DNA from: an uncultured delta proteobacterium
GTDB taxonomy: Bacteria > Desulfobacterota > Desulfobulbia > Desulfobulbales > Desulfurivibrionaceae
Assembly (NCBI GenBank): GCA_903869265.1
Contig: CAIPYE010000014.1
Coordinates: 186,001-250,000 of the forward strand
Length of the DNA: 64,000 bases
Reading direction: 5' to 3'
A model generated the notes under the pieces. The model did no database searches and was not told the origin of the DNA. It saw only the letters and a list, made by a program, of their open reading frames with translations. The stretch's first letter is position 1. Every line of letters begins with the position of its first letter. The translations under genes were made by a program, and so were the position numbers. Shown one piece after another: positions 2,649 to 15,205 of this stretch.

Positions 2649-3524
2649 TTGAAAAAAATTGGCGTTGTTGGCATTCCTGGCGGCTGGTCCTCCGAAAAGC
2701 TCGCCGATGCGGTTGCGGAACGCACCGGTTTCCGCCTGCTGGTGGATCCGGGTGCATTGCGGCTCGATTTGCCTTCGGGCCGGATCCTGTTCGGCGAGGT
2801 GGAACTCAACTCCCTGGACGGCCTGATCATCAAAAAAATCGGCAAGTACTACTCCCCGGATCTGCTTGACCGGCTGGAGGTCTTCCGTTTTTTGTCCGGG
2901 CAGGGACTGCCGATATTTTCCAACCCCTTGAATATCATCCGGGTGCTGGACCGGCTCACCTGCACCATTACCCTGCAGCTCGCCAACATTCCCATGCCGC
3001 CGCTGACCATCACCGAGGATGTGGATGTGGCCCTTGACGCGGTGGCTCTCTATGGCGAGGCGGTATTCAAGCCCCTTTACTCCACCAAGGCGCGGGGAAT
3101 GATCGTGTTGCGGCCCGACGAGGATACCCGCGCAATCATCGAAGACTATAAAGCCGAGCACCGAATCATGTACATTCAAAAAAAGATCGATCTGAACGGC
3201 CGCGACCTGGGCGTGGTGTTTCTTGGCGGCCAGTACCTCACCACCTACGCCAGAACCACCCGCAACGACTCGTGGAACACCACCACCGCCTCCGGCGGCA
3301 AATATCAGCCCTACGACCCGCCGGAGGAGATCATCGCCTTGGCCCGCAAGGCCCAGGCTCCCTTTGGCCTCGATTTCACCTGCGTCGATGTGGTGGAAAC
3401 CGTCGACGGGCTGCGGGTGTTCGAAGTCTCCGCCTTTGGCGGTTTCCGTGGCATTCAAGAGGCAAGCGGCATTGATGCAGCCCAACACTATGCGGACTAT
3501 GTCTGCGGGAAGGTGGGGGCATGA
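2649..3524 (+). CDS. GAK system ATP-grasp enzyme
   Basis: A 291-residue RimK-like ATP-grasp protein, matching what is known of TIGR04356. Visible elements: an N-terminal Rossmann-like strand (KKIGVVGIPGG), ATP-grasp strands AVFKPLYSTKARG and MYIQKKIDLNGRDLG, a basic loop, TTTASGGKYQPY, and a metal-site strand with FEVSAFGGFRGI. The start is TTG at 2649, supported by an AAAGAGG-like ribosome site just upstream. It overlaps the kinase gene by four bases (ATGA), so translation is coupled. Family members ligate a carboxylate to an amine or thiol using ATP; the substrate in this system is not known. Cytoplasmic. Confidence 0.82.
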   Translation: MKKIGVVGIPGGWSSEKLADAVAERTGFRLLVDPGALRLDLPSGRILFGEVELNSLDGLIIKKIGKYYSPDLLDRLEVFRFLSGQGLPIFSNPLNIIRVLDRLTCTITLQLANIPMPPLTITEDVDVALDAVALYGEAVFKPLYSTKARGMIVLRPDEDTRAIIEDYKAEHRIMYIQKKIDLNGRDLGVVFLGGQYLTTYARTTRNDSWNTTTASGGKYQPYDPPEEIIALARKAQAPFGLDFTCVDVVETVDGLRVFEVSAFGGFRGIQEASGIDAAQHYADYVCGKVGA

Positions 3525-4609
3525 AGGTGACACCCATGGCCCGCCAACAACTGGTGCAGCACATCCGCTCGGAGTTCCCCGCAACCGAACAGCTCATTCT
3601 CGCCTTTGACGACTGCCGGATCGGGGTGCAGACCAATTCCCCCGACCTGACGGATAATCTGCGGGAGTACTTCAGCGATTTTATTTCGGACGGTTCGGCA
3701 TGGGACATGCTGATCACTGCCCATGAAGCGCTGCCGTTGGAACTTCCCCATGTTTTCATGACCAAAGAGCCGGACCCTGGCAAGAACAAGATCAAGGAGG
3801 AGTTTATCGATCTGCCCGACGGTCGTATTGTGCGCAAACGGCTCACCGGCATGGTTTTCGTCTTCGGTAGCGATGACAGCGTGGCCGTCGGACCCTGCCT
3901 GGCAAACGCCAATCAGGTGATCAACTTCATCAACAACCGTTTTATCAGCTGGAAACTCCGGCAGGGCTGCCTGCTGGGCCATGCTGCCGGCATTACTTTG
4001 CATGGCCGTGGCTTGGCCCTAGCCGGGTTCTCGGGCATGGGCAAATCCACCCTGGCCCTACATCTGATGAGCCGTGGCGTGAATTTTATCAGCAATGACC
4101 GGGTGATGATCCGGGAGGATGGCGATGGGCTTTTCATGTACGGGATAGCTAAGCTTCCCCGCATCAATCCCGGCACGGCACTCAACAACCCCGACCTGGC
4201 CAAGGTAATCCCGCCCCAGGACCGGGAGCGCTTTGCCAACCTCGCCACGGAGGAACTCTGGAATTTGGAACACAAATACGACGTGTTCCTCGACCATTGC
4301 TTTGGTCCTGGTCGATTCTCCCTGGCAGCCCCCATGGAGGGGTTGGTGATCCTTAATTGGCAGCGAAACCAGGCACCCACTGTGATTCGTGAGGTGGACA
4401 TCCGGCACCGGCGTGATCTTCTGCCTGCTTTCATGAAATCCGCCGGCCTTTTTTTCCTGCCCGAACATGGCGAGGAGATCGATCATTCCGAGGATGCCTA
4501 TCTGGAGCTTCTCGCAAAAACACGGGTGTTCGAAATCAGCGGCGGCATAAATTTCGAACGGGCCTGCGATGCGTGCCTGGCGATTCTAAGCGAAGGTTGC
4601 GAGCAATGA
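3521..4609 (+). CDS. HprK-related kinase B (GAK system)
   Basis: A 362-residue protein whose C-terminal two thirds resemble the HPr kinase/phosphorylase core: Walker A GFSGMGKST near residue 168, followed by SNDRVMI in the position of the HprK SDD-type motif. The first 150 residues form a separate domain. Established knowledge: TIGR04355 members are HprK homologues encoded beside GAK ATP-grasp and CofD-related genes. No HPr gene is visible here, so the target is probably not HPr. ATG at 3521 overlaps the ATP-grasp stop codon. Confidence 0.85.
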   Translation: MKVTPMARQQLVQHIRSEFPATEQLILAFDDCRIGVQTNSPDLTDNLREYFSDFISDGSAWDMLITAHEALPLELPHVFMTKEPDPGKNKIKEEFIDLPDGRIVRKRLTGMVFVFGSDDSVAVGPCLANANQVINFINNRFISWKLRQGCLLGHAAGITLHGRGLALAGFSGMGKSTLALHLMSRGVNFISNDRVMIREDGDGLFMYGIAKLPRINPGTALNNPDLAKVIPPQDRERFANLATEELWNLEHKYDVFLDHCFGPGRFSLAAPMEGLVILNWQRNQAPTVIREVDIRHRRDLLPAFMKSAGLFFLPEHGEEIDHSEDAYLELLAKTRVFEISGGINFERACDACLAILSEGCEQ

Positions 4610-4634
4610 CGGACGGATTGTCGGGTCTCATCTC

Positions 4635-5828
4635 ATGAAAATCAAGGTACAGAGGGAGATTACCCTGCCGGATCCCGTGAGGGTGGAACTCTACCGCCGC
4701 ACCCCCGAACTGGGGCCGCGGCTTCTCTTCTTCAGTGGCGGCAGCGCTCTGCGCGGGGTGAGTCGGGAACTGATCCGCTATACCCACAACTCCTGCCATA
4801 TCATGACCGCTGTTGATTCCGGGGGCAGCTCGGCCACCCTGCGGAAAGCCTTTTCCATGCCCTCCATCGGCGACATCCGGGCCCGTCTCATGGATCTAGC
4901 CGATCAGAGCGTGCAGGGCAACCCGGAAATGTATCGGCTCTTTGCCTATCGCTTCTCCAAAGAAACGGAACAAGACCCGCTCCTTGAGGAACTACGGACC
5001 ATGGTGACCGGCAGGCACCGGTTGGTATCGGCCATACCCAATCCCTTGCGCAAGATTGTCCGCCATCACCTGAAAATCTTTCTCACCCGGATGCCTCAAG
5101 ACTTTGACCTGCGAGGGGCCAGTATCGGGAATCTGGTGCTTACTGCCGGGTATCTGGACAATGGCCGGCACCTCGACCCAGTGATCTTTCTCTTTTCGAA
5201 ACTAGTCGAGGCGCGGGGCACGGTCCGGCCGGTACTCAACCGCTATCTTCACTTGGGAGCGATGCTTGCCGACGGTCAGGTGGTGGTGGGACAGCACCTG
5301 CTTACCGGCAAGGAAGTTCCTCCCCTGGACCAAAAGATCGTCCACCTCTTTCTGACCATGACAACCTCGGCTACCACCAAGGGCGAGGTATGGCCAAGGG
5401 TACGCGACAAGCTCCCCGAACTGATCCTTTCCGCCCAGCTGATCTGCTATCCCATGGGGAGCTTCTATTCCAGCGTCATCGTCAGCCTGTTGCCGGAGGG
5501 GGTGACCGAGGCCATCCAGGGAAACGTCTGTCCAAAAGTCTATATTCCCAGCATGGGTAAAGACCCGGAGGCAGTTGGTCTGAATCTCATGGATCAGATC
5601 GAAACCCTGCTGCGCTACCTGAAGAAAAACAGGCCTGAGATCCCAACCCAGCAGGTGCTGAACTGTGTCCTCATTGACTCAAAGAATGGAGGATACTCAG
5701 GAGAAGTGGAGCAAGAAAGGCTTGCGGAACTGGGAATTCAGTTGATCGATTGCCCGCTGGTCAGCGAGGAAAGCGCGCCCTATTGCGAGCCCAAGCTGCT
5801 GGTCCCCCTGCTGCTTTCGTTGTCCTAA
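4635..5828 (+). CDS. CofD-related protein of the GAK system
   Basis: A 397-residue homologue of CofD/YvcK-type 2-phospho-L-lactate transferases. The N-terminus has LLFFSGGSALRGVSREL followed by TAVDSGGSSATLRKAF, the family's nucleotide-binding glycine loops. A later stretch (GNLVLTAGYLDNG) matches the CofD region that contacts the acceptor. Established knowledge: TIGR04357 is a distinct CofD branch co-occurring with HprK-related kinase B and the GAK ATP-grasp enzyme; coenzyme F420 synthesis is not implied, and no other F420 gene is present. It follows the kinase by 25 bases. Inference: it transfers a phosphoryl-containing group to an unknown acceptor. Confidence 0.82.
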   Translation: MKIKVQREITLPDPVRVELYRRTPELGPRLLFFSGGSALRGVSRELIRYTHNSCHIMTAVDSGGSSATLRKAFSMPSIGDIRARLMDLADQSVQGNPEMYRLFAYRFSKETEQDPLLEELRTMVTGRHRLVSAIPNPLRKIVRHHLKIFLTRMPQDFDLRGASIGNLVLTAGYLDNGRHLDPVIFLFSKLVEARGTVRPVLNRYLHLGAMLADGQVVVGQHLLTGKEVPPLDQKIVHLFLTMTTSATTKGEVWPRVRDKLPELILSAQLICYPMGSFYSSVIVSLLPEGVTEAIQGNVCPKVYIPSMGKDPEAVGLNLMDQIETLLRYLKKNRPEIPTQQVLNCVLIDSKNGGYSGEVEQERLAELGIQLIDCPLVSEESAPYCEPKLLVPLLLSLS

Positions 5829-9834: not shown

Positions 9835-10607
9835 GTCCGCTTCTGGGGGCGCTGGCCGTCCCGCCAGAGCAACTGTCCACAGACCCCCCGGATAATCTTG
9901 ATTTCCTTTGACTTCAAGCCGATCCGTCCCAGAAACTGGCGGATGCTCTGCATCCAGTAATCATCATCCCCTTTTTTAAAAAAGCCGATAGCCTGCAGGG
10001 CCTCTTCCACATGGGTGAACATGGCCTCCAGCTCCTGCTTGTTTCCCTGGCGGGGAACCGCCTTGGGGAAGGTGCTGCGGCTCACCGCGTCCAGAACGCT
10101 GTAATGGAGTTCGTGGCAGAGGATGGCCACGGCCTGGGCCAGGTTGAGGGAGGAAAAATCCACCGTGGGGATGGTGGTGATCTGATTGCAGTAGCGGAGC
10201 TCTTCGTTGGCCAACCCCCGGTCTTCCGGACCGAAGAGCAGGGCGACCCGGTTGTTTTTGAGCTGGGGCAAAATCTCACCCATGAGTTGCCTGGGGCTGT
10301 TGACCGTGGTCCGCTTTCTGCCCTGACGGGCGGAGGTGCCCAGCACCCAGCCGAAGGGGGCCAGAGCCTCACCCAGCTCTTGATAGCATTCCAGAGTCTC
10401 GACGAGATGGGCCGCCTTGGCGGTGGCGAGCCGGTCCATCTTCTCGCGGTCGGGCATTTCCCGGCAGACGAGGATGAGCCGGTTGATCCCCATGTTCGCT
10501 GCGATTCTCGCCGCCGAGCCGACATTTTCGGCAAACTTAGGCGAGACCAGGACGATGGCCGCTTGGGCCATCAGCTCCCGCACCGTATCCCGCCTTGCCT
10601 GGGTCAT
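9831..10607 (-). CDS. trmJ: TrmJ-family tRNA/rRNA 2'-O-methyltransferase
   Basis: A 258-residue SPOUT-class (TrmH group 1) methyltransferase. The trefoil-knot motifs are clear: SPKFAENVGSAARIAANMG at the N-terminus, FGPEDRGLANEEL and IPTVDFSSLNLAQAV around the SAM site. The ~90-residue C-terminal helical extension is typical of TrmJ. It methylates the 2'-O of a nucleotide, probably at tRNA position 32, using S-adenosylmethionine. Its ATG overlaps the TGA of rnr by four bases, so it is the downstream gene of an rnr-trmJ operon. It converges on the EIIA-like gene with no visible terminator. Confidence 0.88.
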   Translation of the reverse strand: MTQARRDTVRELMAQAAIVLVSPKFAENVGSAARIAANMGINRLILVCREMPDREKMDRLATAKAAHLVETLECYQELGEALAPFGWVLGTSARQGRKRTTVNSPRQLMGEILPQLKNNRVALLFGPEDRGLANEELRYCNQITTIPTVDFSSLNLAQAVAILCHELHYSVLDAVSRSTFPKAVPRQGNKQELEAMFTHVEEALQAIGFFKKGDDDYWMQSIRQFLGRIGLKSKEIKIIRGVCGQLLWRDGQRPQKRT

Positions 10608-12922
10608 TTGTTGGCAATTTTGCGTTTTCTTGTTGGTGGGGCGGTTTGTTTGCGGCCAGTGGAGTCGGCTTTTACCCGCTTGCCTGCGACCGGTTTCGCC
10701 AGGATGTCCGTGGCGCGGGCCAGCTTTTCCTCCACAGTGAAATTGATCCGCCGCCTGGGGATCTCCACGCTGGTCAAGCGTACCCGCACCAAGTCGCCGA
10801 TCTGGTAGACGGTTTTGCTTCGCTGGCCGATGAGCCGGTGGCGGCCCTCCTCCAGTTCGTAATAATCGTCGCGCATCTCGGTGATGGGCACGGCGCCGTT
10901 GACAAAGATCTCGGTCAGCTCGACAAACAACCCGAAGGCCGTGACCCCGGAGATAATGGCTTCAAAGGTTTCGTCGATCTTGTCGGCCATGAAGTGAACC
11001 TGGAGCCGCTCCACCATCTCCCGGTCCGCCTCCACCGCCACCCGCTCCCGCTTGGAGAGAAACCCGCCGGATTCTTCGGTGGATACTGCCTCGTTGGCGG
11101 GAATACCCTTCCCTTTTTTTTGCAGGCTTGCGGCCAGGGCCCGGTGGACCATGAGATCCGGATACCTGCGGATGGGTGAGGTGAAGTGGGTATAGTGGGT
11201 GGCGGCCAACCCGAAATGGCCGAGATTGTGCGGGGAGTAGCGCGCCTGCTGCATAGTGCGCAGCAAAAGATTGCTGATGATGTACTCCTGGGGGGTGCCC
11301 GCAGCCATGGCCAGCACCTTGCCGAACCACTGAGGCGAGCCGCCACCGTCATCGACCGGAAGCCCCATGCTCTGGGCAAACTCGGTGAACTCGGCCACCT
11401 TGAGCTGGTCGGGCGGTTCGTGGATGCGGTAAAGGGAGTCGATCTTGCCCTGGTCCAGGGTCAAGGCCACCGCTTCGTTGGCCGCGAGCATGAACTCCTC
11501 GATGAGCTTGTGGGCCTGATTGCGCTCGCTCCGCTTGATGGTCTGCACGGTGTTGTCCTCGCCCAGCACTACGAGGGGTTCCGGAAGTTCAAAGCCGATG
11601 CTCCCCCGCTTGACCCGCTGCTTTTCGAGATTCAGGGCCAGTTGGCCCATGCGTTCCAGATCCTCCACCATGTCGGCATACTGGCTGCGCACGGCGGCAT
11701 CCTTGTCTGCCAGAATCTGTTTGACGATGGTGTAGGTGAGGCGATACTTGCTGCGGATGATGCTTTTTGTGAAGCGTTTGGCCAGCCGGTTGCCTTGGGC
11801 ATCAAAATCAAGCACGGCGGTGAAGGTGTAGCGGTCCTCGTTGGGCACCAGGCTGCAGAGGTTGTTGGAGAGACGCTCCGGCAGCATGGGGATGACCCGG
11901 GTGGGGAAGTAAACGCTGGTGCCGCGCTGGTAGGCCTCGACATCCACCGGGGTTTGCGGCTGCACATAATGGCTGACATCGGCGATGGAGACATAGAGGC
12001 GATAGCCGTTTTTCAGCGGCGCTATGGCCACGGCGTCGTCAAAATCGCGGGCTGTTTCCCCGTCGATGGTCACATGGACCACATTCCGCAGATCGGTGCG
12101 TCCACCACCCATTTTCACCTCAGAATCCAGCCCCTCCACCTGGGAGATCACCTCCTGGGTAAAGACGTGGGGCAGATCGAACTTGCGGATGACCATCTCG
12201 GTCTGGACCTGGATATCCTTGGGGTTGCCCAGCACTTCGAGGATGATGCCGTCCAGATTGCGCTGGCCGGCGGCAAAGGAGGTGACCTCGGCCAAGACCG
12301 CGTCGCCGTTCTTGGCCCCCCGGCTGTCCTCCTTGCGGATGATCAGATTGTAGGGGAAACGGCTGTCCTCCGGGGTCACCAAGCCGGTGTTGCCCCCGGC
12401 CATGTAAACCCCGACCAGCCGGGTGGTGGCTCGGTTCAGGACCGCGATCACCCGTCCCTCGTAACGGCCCTGGCGGCGGCTCATCAACTGGACCAGCACC
12501 TTGTCGTTGTGGGCAGAGCCGCCCAGCATGCCGGGCGGGATAAAGACGTCCTGGTCGATCTCCAGCTCGACCGGGGCCTCGGCGGGCGAAACAAAGCCAT
12601 AGCCCTTGGTGGTCACGCTGATCGGGCCGGCAAAGAGTTCCGCGCTCTTGCGCAGGGCAAAGGTGTCCCGTTTGCAGGCAAGCACCTTGCGCTGGCAAAG
12701 GTCATCCAGCACCCCCAACACCTCCTGGCGGTGGCTCTTGCTTAACCCCAGCGCTTCAAAGATATCCTTGGCCGAAAGCGGCATGTCCGCCGTGTAGAGC
12801 TGGCCCAGGATTTCGCCTTCAAAGCGTGCGTCCTGGTGTTGGCGCGTTGGCCTGCCACCCTCGCGCTGGCGTTTTCCCGGTCGGCCCTGCTTGCTGTGGA
12901 AAACCTTTCTTCTGTGTGTCAC
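10604..12922 (-). CDS. rnr: Ribonuclease R
   Basis: A 772-residue RNase II/R-family 3'-5' exoribonuclease of usual length. Domains in order: a basic N-terminus with a winged-helix region, two cold-shock domains, the RNB domain with the catalytic acidic cluster DGETARDFDDAVAIA and downstream FGLAATHYTHFTSPIRRYPD, an S1 domain (ISGVTAFGLFVELTE), and a Lys/Arg-rich tail. It degrades structured RNA in the cytoplasm. The start is GTG 12922, preceded by GAGAGG in the coding direction. It is divergent from the Rel gene and is followed by overlapping trmJ. Confidence 0.92.
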   Translation of the reverse strand: MTHRRKVFHSKQGRPGKRQREGGRPTRQHQDARFEGEILGQLYTADMPLSAKDIFEALGLSKSHRQEVLGVLDDLCQRKVLACKRDTFALRKSAELFAGPISVTTKGYGFVSPAEAPVELEIDQDVFIPPGMLGGSAHNDKVLVQLMSRRQGRYEGRVIAVLNRATTRLVGVYMAGGNTGLVTPEDSRFPYNLIIRKEDSRGAKNGDAVLAEVTSFAAGQRNLDGIILEVLGNPKDIQVQTEMVIRKFDLPHVFTQEVISQVEGLDSEVKMGGGRTDLRNVVHVTIDGETARDFDDAVAIAPLKNGYRLYVSIADVSHYVQPQTPVDVEAYQRGTSVYFPTRVIPMLPERLSNNLCSLVPNEDRYTFTAVLDFDAQGNRLAKRFTKSIIRSKYRLTYTIVKQILADKDAAVRSQYADMVEDLERMGQLALNLEKQRVKRGSIGFELPEPLVVLGEDNTVQTIKRSERNQAHKLIEEFMLAANEAVALTLDQGKIDSLYRIHEPPDQLKVAEFTEFAQSMGLPVDDGGGSPQWFGKVLAMAAGTPQEYIISNLLLRTMQQARYSPHNLGHFGLAATHYTHFTSPIRRYPDLMVHRALAASLQKKGKGIPANEAVSTEESGGFLSKRERVAVEADREMVERLQVHFMADKIDETFEAIISGVTAFGLFVELTEIFVNGAVPITEMRDDYYELEEGRHRLIGQRSKTVYQIGDLVRVRLTSVEIPRRRINFTVEEKLARATDILAKPVAGKRVKADSTGRKQTAPPTRKRKIANK

Positions 12923-13090
12923 AGGTCTGCCTCTCTTGGGCTATTTTTTTTGTAGAAATGGAAAATCATTGCACAAGGGCTGAGAACGAAATACCCTTAC
13001 AACATACTCTGATAACAGTGATTGTACCTTATTTGCGGGGACAGATCATCCATATTACCCATAACCGAACAAGAAAGACCACGATCAATC

Positions 13091-15205
13091 ATGGCTCCTT
13101 CCAAAAAATTTAACATAGCCGCCTATTGTGAGCGCATGGAGCAGATCCTCGGCGGGCAGGAAGGTCCGGCCAAGGTTTTCTGGGAGGCGGTGTCCTTTGC
13201 TGTTTCCGCCCATCAGGACCAGCGGCGCAAGTCAGGCGAGGCCTATGTCAGCCATCCCCTCCAGGTGGCGAAGATCCTGGTGGAGGAGCTGGACATCCGC
13301 GACCCGGAGCTGCTGGCTGCCGCCGTGCTCCACGACACGGTGGAGGATGTGCCCGAAGTGACCAGCGAGGTGATCGGCGAGATATTTGGCAAGAATATCG
13401 AGATCATCGTCGATGCCTGCACCAAGATCGCCAACTTCGCCGGCAACAAGCAGACCTTTTACAAATTGGTCCACCGCAAGCTTTTTTCCGGGGCTGCAGC
13501 CCATCTTGAAGTTTTATTGATCAAGCTGGCCGACCGGTTGCACAACCTGCGCACCATGGGTTCCATGCCCAAGGACAAGCGGCAGAAAATCGCCGAGGAA
13601 ACCCTGGACATCTATGCGCCCCTGGCCAAGGTCATGGGCTTGAACTCCATCAAGCGCGAGCTGTACACCCTGGCCCTGATGTATAAATTTCCGCGCCAGA
13701 GCCAGAAGGTGCTGGCCGGGATCAAACGGCTCCAGGACAGCGAAGAGGTGTTGGCCATCAAGCGCACCCTTGAGGAGCGGATGCAGGAGGCGTGGATCAC
13801 CCACGAAATCCGCCTCAACCCCAAGGGGCTTTGGTCCTATTTTGATCCGGCCCAGAAGGTGCTGCACAAAACCATTGCCAACCCCCTGGAATTCATCATC
13901 GTCACCAATGACATCCAGACCTGCTACCGGGTTCTCGGAGTCATCCACCAGAACTATCCGCCCATCCCCAGAACCATCCGGGATTTCATCGCCAACCCCA
14001 AAGCCACCGGCTATCAGAGCCTGCATACCCGCGCCAACATCAAGGGGCGCAACTACCTGTTCAAGATTCGCACCGCCGAGATGACCACCTCCTCCCGCAC
14101 CGGGTTGGTGCGGCAATGGTTTGCCCACAAGCAGGTGCCCAGCAGTTTCGAGGTGGAACTGCGGGAGATGCTGGATATCCTGGGAACGGACGAGGATCTC
14201 TCCTACCGGGAGATGATCGCGGTCAGCGGCAAAAAGGCCATCTACACTTACACCCCCAAGGGCGACCCCATTGAGCTGCCCGCCCGCAGCATTGTGCTTG
14301 ATTTCGCCTTTAAGGTGCACACGGATGTGGGCAAGCGCTGCATCAAGGCCAAGATCGGCAAGCGCCAGGTGGAGCCGGACGCGCTTCTCGAAGACGGCGA
14401 TCAGGTGGAGATCATCTGCCAAAAAGAGCCGGTGCGTTTCGAACCGGAAATCCAGCAGCGTTGCCAGACCCCCAGGGCAAGGGCGGAGCTTTCCAAGCTC
14501 TTTCGCCAGCGGCGGGAGGCCCTGGCCGCCATGATCGGCGAGAGCATCCTCCGCCAGGAACTCAAACATTATGGGTTGCCCTACGATATCCTGGAAAAAT
14601 CGGGCATGGGAACCATCCTGGCACCCCTTGAGGCAAAGGAACTGCCGGATCTTTTCCTCGGCCTGGGCGAGGGCAGATTTCGGTTGCGGGAACTCATCAC
14701 CGACATTAAAAACCGGCTGTACGCAGGCGGGGAAACCCTGCAGCCCCCCACCGGCAGTCTGAACCGCATCGAGCTTGCCACCCTGGACCCGGCCTGTATC
14801 AAATTTTCCCGCTGCTGCAACCCTACCCCCACGGAAAAAGGGCTGTACGGCCTGCTCAGCGAGCGGGGGCTTTCCGTCCATCAGAAGGAATGCGCCACCT
14901 TCACCTCCCTCCATGTCCAACGGGAGGATGTGGTGGAGGTGCGCTGGCGGCTCAAGGAAACCCAGGTGCCCAAGATGCAGACCATCCTCGTGCTGCAGGC
15001 CCCGTCCCGCAACCGGGTTTTGATGATGTTGGGGGTGGCCCCGGAAGAGATGAAGATTACAGAGATCGATCTGCTTTCCAGCCAGCCCTCGCGCACCTCT
15101 GCCTGGCAGATCAACTTTCAGGTGGACACCCTGCAAGGTTTGAAAAATATCCTCGTCCACCTGGACAAGACCGGGATGGCCTTTGAGTTCGTGCTGGAGC
15201 AGTAA
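13091..15205 (+). CDS. RelA/SpoT-family protein, hydrolase intact, synthetase probably dead
   Basis: 705 residues with the long-Rel layout: HD hydrolase (about 30-180), synthetase (about 215-360), TGS (YTPKGDPIELPARSIVLDFA), Zn-finger/helical region and C-terminal ACT. HD residues H55, H81-D82 and D148 (KLADRLHN) are kept. Numbering coincides with Streptococcus Rel across the synthetase: catalytic D264 is Asn, catalytic E323 is Leu (NYLFKIRT in place of xxEIQIRT), and the RFKD loop is TIRD, although GYQSLHT with Tyr308 is kept. It should therefore hydrolyse but not make (p)ppGpp. An upstream TTG at 13022 would add 23 atypical residues. A repeat element starts at its stop codon. Confidence 0.88.
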   Translation: MAPSKKFNIAAYCERMEQILGGQEGPAKVFWEAVSFAVSAHQDQRRKSGEAYVSHPLQVAKILVEELDIRDPELLAAAVLHDTVEDVPEVTSEVIGEIFGKNIEIIVDACTKIANFAGNKQTFYKLVHRKLFSGAAAHLEVLLIKLADRLHNLRTMGSMPKDKRQKIAEETLDIYAPLAKVMGLNSIKRELYTLALMYKFPRQSQKVLAGIKRLQDSEEVLAIKRTLEERMQEAWITHEIRLNPKGLWSYFDPAQKVLHKTIANPLEFIIVTNDIQTCYRVLGVIHQNYPPIPRTIRDFIANPKATGYQSLHTRANIKGRNYLFKIRTAEMTTSSRTGLVRQWFAHKQVPSSFEVELREMLDILGTDEDLSYREMIAVSGKKAIYTYTPKGDPIELPARSIVLDFAFKVHTDVGKRCIKAKIGKRQVEPDALLEDGDQVEIICQKEPVRFEPEIQQRCQTPRARAELSKLFRQRREALAAMIGESILRQELKHYGLPYDILEKSGMGTILAPLEAKELPDLFLGLGEGRFRLRELITDIKNRLYAGGETLQPPTGSLNRIELATLDPACIKFSRCCNPTPTEKGLYGLLSERGLSVHQKECATFTSLHVQREDVVEVRWRLKETQVPKMQTILVLQAPSRNRVLMMLGVAPEEMKITEIDLLSSQPSRTSAWQINFQVDTLQGLKNILVHLDKTGMAFEFVLEQ

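Follow-up and report, generated by a model that had tools for sequence, protein, structure and literature searches.

A long RSH protein with a dead synthetase site, predicted to be the hydrolase half of a split Rel system in Desulfobulbales

The window, a stretch of 64,000 nucleotides from an uncultured member of the Desulfobulbales, an order that includes sulfate reducers, contains a gene for a long RSH protein of 704 amino acids. This protein is called H here, and its clade H1. The features of the locus are as follows.

10604..12922, minus strand: divergent neighbour gene of H (context, not part of the enzyme)
13091..15205, plus strand: coding sequence of the predicted hydrolase-only long RSH (H, H1), 704 aa, from the open reading frame and the reading of its residues
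13187..13639, plus strand: HD hydrolase domain (HD_4), aa 33-183, catalytic and metal residues intact
13703..14125, plus strand: pseudo-synthetase domain, approximately aa 205-345 (Pfam RelA_SpoT)
13880..13882, plus strand: codon AAC, Asn264, replacing the catalytic Asp
13973..13984, plus strand: TIRD replacing RFKD, aa 295-298
14057..14059, plus strand: codon CTG, Leu323, replacing the catalytic Glu
14063..14065, plus strand: codon AAG, Lys325, replacing Gln
14117..14257, plus strand: shortened segment of 47 residues from the last Trp of the synthetase (SYNTH) domain to the Pro of TGS
14240..14416, plus strand: TGS domain, aa 384-442 (Pfam)
14813..14893, plus strand: zinc-finger-like CC...H...C motif (C575, C576, H597, C601)

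The ATG at 13091 was taken as the start of H; an upstream TTG at 13022 would extend the open reading frame to 727 aa. The neighbouring gene, which we take to be RNase R-like, lies head to head with the RSH gene with 168 bp between them. Of 86 loci with an H gene, many of them short or overlapping each other, 63 had such a gene opposite H, and the layout is kept in most families of the order. No NCBIfam model scored above its own curated cut-off for the protein.

The open reading frame, the codon positions and the numbering of the original prediction, anchored at Tyr308 in GYQSLHT, proved exact. It had named H55, H81-D82 and D148 as kept in the HD site; all are present, together with R46, E85, D86, N152 and T155. 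His410 of the TGS domain and the zinc-finger cysteines are also retained, so H may still associate with the ribosome. The synthetase site is different. The Pfam RelA_SpoT match covers only aa 270-343 of H, corresponding to profile positions 31-106. The predicted replacements of Asp264 by Asn (AAC at 13880), of Glu323 by Leu (CTG at 14057) and of RFKD by TIRD were all confirmed, and the equivalents of R241, H244, K251 and R269 of RelSeq are missing as well. Tyr308, His312 and Asp298 are still present, probably retained for folding. A 63-row alignment places the Asp and Glu of the consensus exactly at positions 264 and 323 of H, where H itself has Asn and Leu and thus no acidic residue at either site. 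Since invariant residues (C278 and R327) lie close by, a register error is very unlikely.

A protein with these residues had been expected to depend on another synthetase for (p)ppGpp, and a survey of the genome supports this as a prediction. The assembly (2.82 Mb, 99.2% complete) gave two RelA_SpoT matches and two HD_4 matches, located in the same two genes, and no third gene of either kind. The second RSH, termed S, is a protein of 718 aa encoded on contig C1 of the same genome (G000, locus L001, positions 787-2943). Its synthetase site is intact in every residue checked, with equivalents of R241, H244, K251, D264, R269, RFKD, Y308, H312, E323 and Q325. Its HD site is broken, with LLHGVLKK in place of LLHDVVED and HDM in place of HNM. 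The residues gone are Asp78, which acts as a metal ligand in the HD site, Glu81-Asp82 and Asn148 (N148D). Changes of E82, D83 or N147 in the SpoT protein of Acinetobacter baumannii, the equivalents of HD sites lost in S, abolish hydrolysis according to the available text of PMC9974481. This predicts a complete division of labour between two proteins, one making (p)ppGpp and the other hydrolysing it. A small alarmone synthetase was excluded as a source of (p)ppGpp in this host, given that the genome has only two RelA_SpoT matches.

We surveyed 58 genomes of the order and aligned 56 H-type and 54 S-type proteins. As the original prediction had suggested checking, the loss of the synthetase site is consistent across the H orthologues: D264 is replaced in all 56 (N in 27, T in 11, H in 6, S in 5, others in the rest), and all 56 have Leu at 323 and Lys at 325 (positions that are one higher in the numbering of Bacillus subtilis Rel). 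None of the HD residues H53, H77, D78, E81, D82, D144, N148 and T151 (numbered as in B. subtilis Rel) varies among the 54 H proteins in which they could be read. D264 is present in all 53 S proteins in which it was read, and E323 in all 54. Asp78 is replaced in 49 of the 50 S proteins read, and the exception (L029) lacks R44, D82 and N148. A larger set of 57 H and 70 S proteins gave the same pattern. Read from these residues, the pair of H and S is fixed across the sampled families of the order. Four incomplete genomes (79-86%) depart from it: only H was found in G001 and G026, and no H was found in G005 and G051. In G073, which is 95% complete, the H copy is present and an S copy was not detected. 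Desulfopila sp. IMCC35008 and a Desulforhopalus MAG, both belonging to the Desulfocapsaceae within the Desulfobulbales, also possess an H gene and an HD-broken S partner, and the S protein of Desulfopila clusters with family f12 of the order in a tree of 80 RSH proteins.

Mean pairwise identity within the order was 72% for the HD domain and 55% for the SYNTH domain of H, 63% and 69% for those of S, and 65% and 59% for the single Rel proteins of other lineages. Within the genus of the window the median dN/dS of H (14 pairs) was 0.036 in HD and 0.103 in the pseudo-SYNTH domain; that of S (12 pairs) was 0.089 in the pseudo-HD and 0.055 in the SYNTH domain. Purifying selection acts on the dead domains too, as would be expected if they serve as regulatory scaffolds. 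Both a pseudogene and an alignment slip were ruled out by fixation, by gap-free anchors and by dN/dS.

Two further loci in the order deserve mention. In G064 the genome's own H/S pair was seen as matches, and it contained in addition a third long RSH with both sites intact (L112, contig C5, positions 637-2964). L112 groups with an actinobacterial Rel and reflects either gene transfer or contamination. In the single-contig genome G071 the gene for the synthetase-only Rel consists of two overlapping frames (L175, contig C1, positions 2567851-2568182), for which a sequencing error, a pseudogene or a frameshift could each account.

A search with an H profile was extended to 198 genomes, 190 of them outside the order, with two copies called at E <= 1e-60. 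Two long RSHs were found in 15 of the 190 (families f48, f81, f32, f56 and f71); 6 of the 198 had no long RSH and the remainder had one. In all 15 two-copy genomes the second copy had an intact HD and a dead SYNTH site, and the resident Rel had an intact SYNTH and a changed HD site. The 108 outside-order genomes that were read, partly picked by match score with weak scorers added on purpose as a counterweight, comprised these 15 with H and an HD-broken Rel, 90 without H and 3 unscored. In every one of the 90 the HD site of Rel was intact. Set aside in this count were G113 (HD unread), G125 (split gene) and G224 (masked letters), and four named carriers of H1 (G285-G288) were removed from the outside-order counts. 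Some partners outside the order carry conservative HD changes (E81D, N148D and T151V in G263; D82E and T151H in G252) and could retain some hydrolysis. A scan of named genomes with two short HD motifs yielded at least 4 H-type carriers among at least 80 loci; the other 76 listed loci were taken as ordinary long RSHs by their identity of 28-33%, some of them after checking.

Other RSH-like genes were encountered in the course of these surveys. G146 contains an intact Rel and a divergent HD-SYNTH-TGS protein of 504 aa with degenerate HD residues (L173, positions 1260-2771). Several active-site letters of this protein are shared by a 557-aa protein of Desulfopila sp. IMCC35008 (L298, positions 589-2259) that matches RelA_SpoT strongly but gives no HD match in Pfam. 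A protein of 728 aa in G031 (L073, contig C57, positions 3441-5624) combines a sigma-54 activator AAA+ domain with a synthetase-like RelA_SpoT domain. Among genomes of other orders that are 91-100% complete, G120 has as its sole RelA_SpoT match a protein of 548 aa whose synthetase domain is N-terminal (L172), and G138 and G140 gave no RelA_SpoT match at all.

In the tree of 80 RSH proteins, which was built by a quick method and, like our other RSH trees, contained no Moraxellaceae sequence, the S proteins fell inside the radiation of Desulfobacterota Rel and the H proteins outside it. The latter formed three fully supported clades: H1 (the order of the window, f48 and f81), H2 (f32 and f56) and H3 (f71), whose members have only about 485 aa. 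Membership of H in the SpoT or the RelA clade was rejected, as H forms a separate, fully supported clade; the deep position of this clade rests on a long branch. In a tree of HD domains alone, calculated with a mixture model, H1 stood apart from SpoT on a branch of 1.24. The deep position of the H clades is weakly fixed because long branches meet there.

A second tree was built from Rel proteins without the HD columns (124 ingroup rows). In this tree 40 rows have an H partner and 40 have a broken HD site, and the two traits coincide. Each needs four changes, of which at least three are forced by well-supported branches, and so the partners apparently lost their HD site at least three times, as far as the tree of their remaining columns tells. 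The damage differs in kind between lineages, which supports independent losses. In a sign test the three independent pairs were all concordant (p 0.25), three pairs being too few for significance. The S proteins of the order are nearer to the single-copy Rel of f59, f39 and f75 than to S of f48 and f81, with an SH-aLRT of 94% that is just below the support mark used by the tree tool. Since the S proteins are not sisters and H1 is one clade across the order, f48 and f81, the H1 gene may have been transferred from one order to another.

The segment between the SYNTH and TGS domains offers a further trait of the H proteins. The 57 H1 proteins measured in the order have 46-48 residues here, those of f48 and f81 have 49-51, H2 has 43-44 and H3 has 40. 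By comparison, the segment spans 54-57 residues in 70 S proteins from the order and 53-57 in partners elsewhere. Among 38 other Rel proteins its length is 48-56 with a median of 54; SpoT of Escherichia coli has 55 residues and Rel of B. subtilis has 56. The segment is therefore shortened in all three H clades. For A. baumannii SpoT the pseudo-SYNTH domain has been described as regulatory, with shorter disordered segments favouring a compact hydrolysing state (available parts of PMC9974481). An AlphaFold2 model of H (mean pLDDT 86.6, pTM 0.71) matched the catalytic halves of Rel proteins with Z scores of 31-33 and an rmsd of 2.5-3.1 over 310-329 residues (2.5-2.8 for Staphylococcus aureus Rel and RelSeq). 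The first Foldseek match of the whole model was full-length A. baumannii SpoT, with the domains placed differently (TM 0.39, rmsd about 28). Because of this difference the compact state is one that we infer: the shortened segment may lock H in a hydrolysing conformation.

We consider it very probable, from the residues of both partners, that H is a dedicated Mn-dependent (p)ppGpp 3'-pyrophosphohydrolase and one half of a split Rel system. It might instead be thought that H is a duplicate in decay, its synthetase domain eroded by redundancy and the gene heading for loss. The SYNTH domain is indeed less conserved than the rest of the protein. However, dN/dS of H within the genus is as low as 0.02-0.13 across HD and pseudo-SYNTH, the HD residues do not vary, H is present throughout the order and its gene neighbourhood is conserved, so that we give this explanation almost no credence. 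Another possibility is that the HD site is active on a different substrate and that H is no antagonist of S. HD-family substrates vary, some small RSH-type hydrolases act on (p)ppApp or NADPH, and the structure matches included PDB entries titled as a (p)ppApp hydrolase and as Mesh1-NADPH. Yet all ppGpp-site residues that were checked in H match those of Rel, and no HD_4 site other than that of H is intact in this genome, which does have an intact (p)ppGpp synthetase. Moreover, wherever H occurs the HD site of Rel is broken, and some other hydrolase has to stand in for it; a different substrate is very improbable on these grounds.

The conservation of the TGS domain and the C-terminal motifs might also suggest that H is non-catalytic or mainly regulatory and tunes S through these domains, hydrolysis being secondary. 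This sits poorly with the HD domain being the most conserved part of the protein, both in identity and in dN/dS, and we regard it as very unlikely. In the preferred reading, a dedicated hydrolase, H would keep the full body of a long RSH with the former synthetase serving as a structural or regulatory pseudo-domain. S would make (p)ppGpp without being able to hydrolyse the alarmone, and H, as the only intact HD_4-type (p)ppGpp hydrolase found in the genome, would have to stop it from running away. The shortened SYNTH-TGS segment would favour a compact, hydrolysis-locked form of H, as proposed for A. baumannii SpoT. H would then be essential while its partner S is present; this essentiality, like both enzymatic activities, is something we infer.

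It is likely, on the trees and residues described above, that a complete split of Rel took place at least three times in the phylum, each time with the gain of an H-type RSH, the decay of the HD site in the resident Rel and the shortening of the segment in H. If this is true, a split of the RelA/SpoT type is a repeatable outcome and not a gammaproteobacterial accident. With such recurrent splits as natural replicates one could ask why a bifunctional Rel becomes divided, what the pseudo-domains do, and whether a shorter SYNTH-TGS segment suffices to hold a long RSH in its hydrolysing form.

Second long RSHs of this group have been seen before. A survey of 2011 described RshD, a divergent second long RSH beside the resident Rel, as H is, in four deltaproteobacteria including Desulfotalea psychrophila, and named Rel[HS], alone or accompanied by small RSHs, as the usual complement of deltaproteobacteria (PMC3153485, in its available parts). 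The RshD proteins of D. psychrophila and Syntrophobacter fumaroxidans grouped with 100% support, and the second copies of Pelobacter and Magnetococcus, which did not group with these two, were pooled under the same name. D. psychrophila belongs to the Desulfocapsaceae, the family of the H carriers Desulfopila and Desulforhopalus. RshD was labelled bifunctional [HS], whereas the residues of H predict [Hs], and the available text of PMC3153485 makes no mention of a hydrolase loss in the resident Rel. As the SYNTH site was dead in all H proteins read, they would not be bifunctional, and the label RshD[HS] looks wrong for the H clade; if so, its functional label becomes [Hs].

Searches of the open-access literature turned up no report of hydrolase-only long RSHs in Desulfobacterota, and in the parts of it that were available (PMC3153485, PMC9974481 and PMC12742793) a complete split was described for Moraxellaceae only (most subscription papers and bioRxiv lay outside this scope). 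The split that those sources attribute to Moraxellaceae alone seems to be the norm in an entire order and to have evolved repeatedly. With Rel[HS] of B. subtilis and Streptococcus H shares the HD-SYNTH-TGS-C-terminal order and the HD site; it differs in lacking the SYNTH site and in its segment of 47 instead of 56 residues. S resembles RelA[hS] in its intact SYNTH and broken HD site, but its place in the tree is inside Desulfobacterota Rel and away from RelA of E. coli. The closest functional parallel is SpoT[Hs] of Moraxellaceae (A. baumannii SpoT, PDB 7qpr), likewise a long RSH with an intact HD and a dead SYNTH site that forms a complete split together with a synthetase-only long RSH, RelA[hS] (PMC9974481 and PMC12742793, as far as their available text goes). 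In A. baumannii SpoT the loss of D272 and Q347, which correspond to N264 and K325 of H, is held to preclude synthesis (same parts of PMC9974481). The replacements differ: that protein has Ser at the D site and Thr at the Q site, and the H clade has Asn, Thr, His or Ser at 264 together with Leu323 and Lys325. Unlike Moraxellaceae SpoT, H falls outside the gamma- and betaproteobacterial SpoT clade. As predicted from its residues, the H/S pair works like SpoT[Hs] and RelA[hS], and by descent, as placed in our trees, it is neither SpoT nor RelA.
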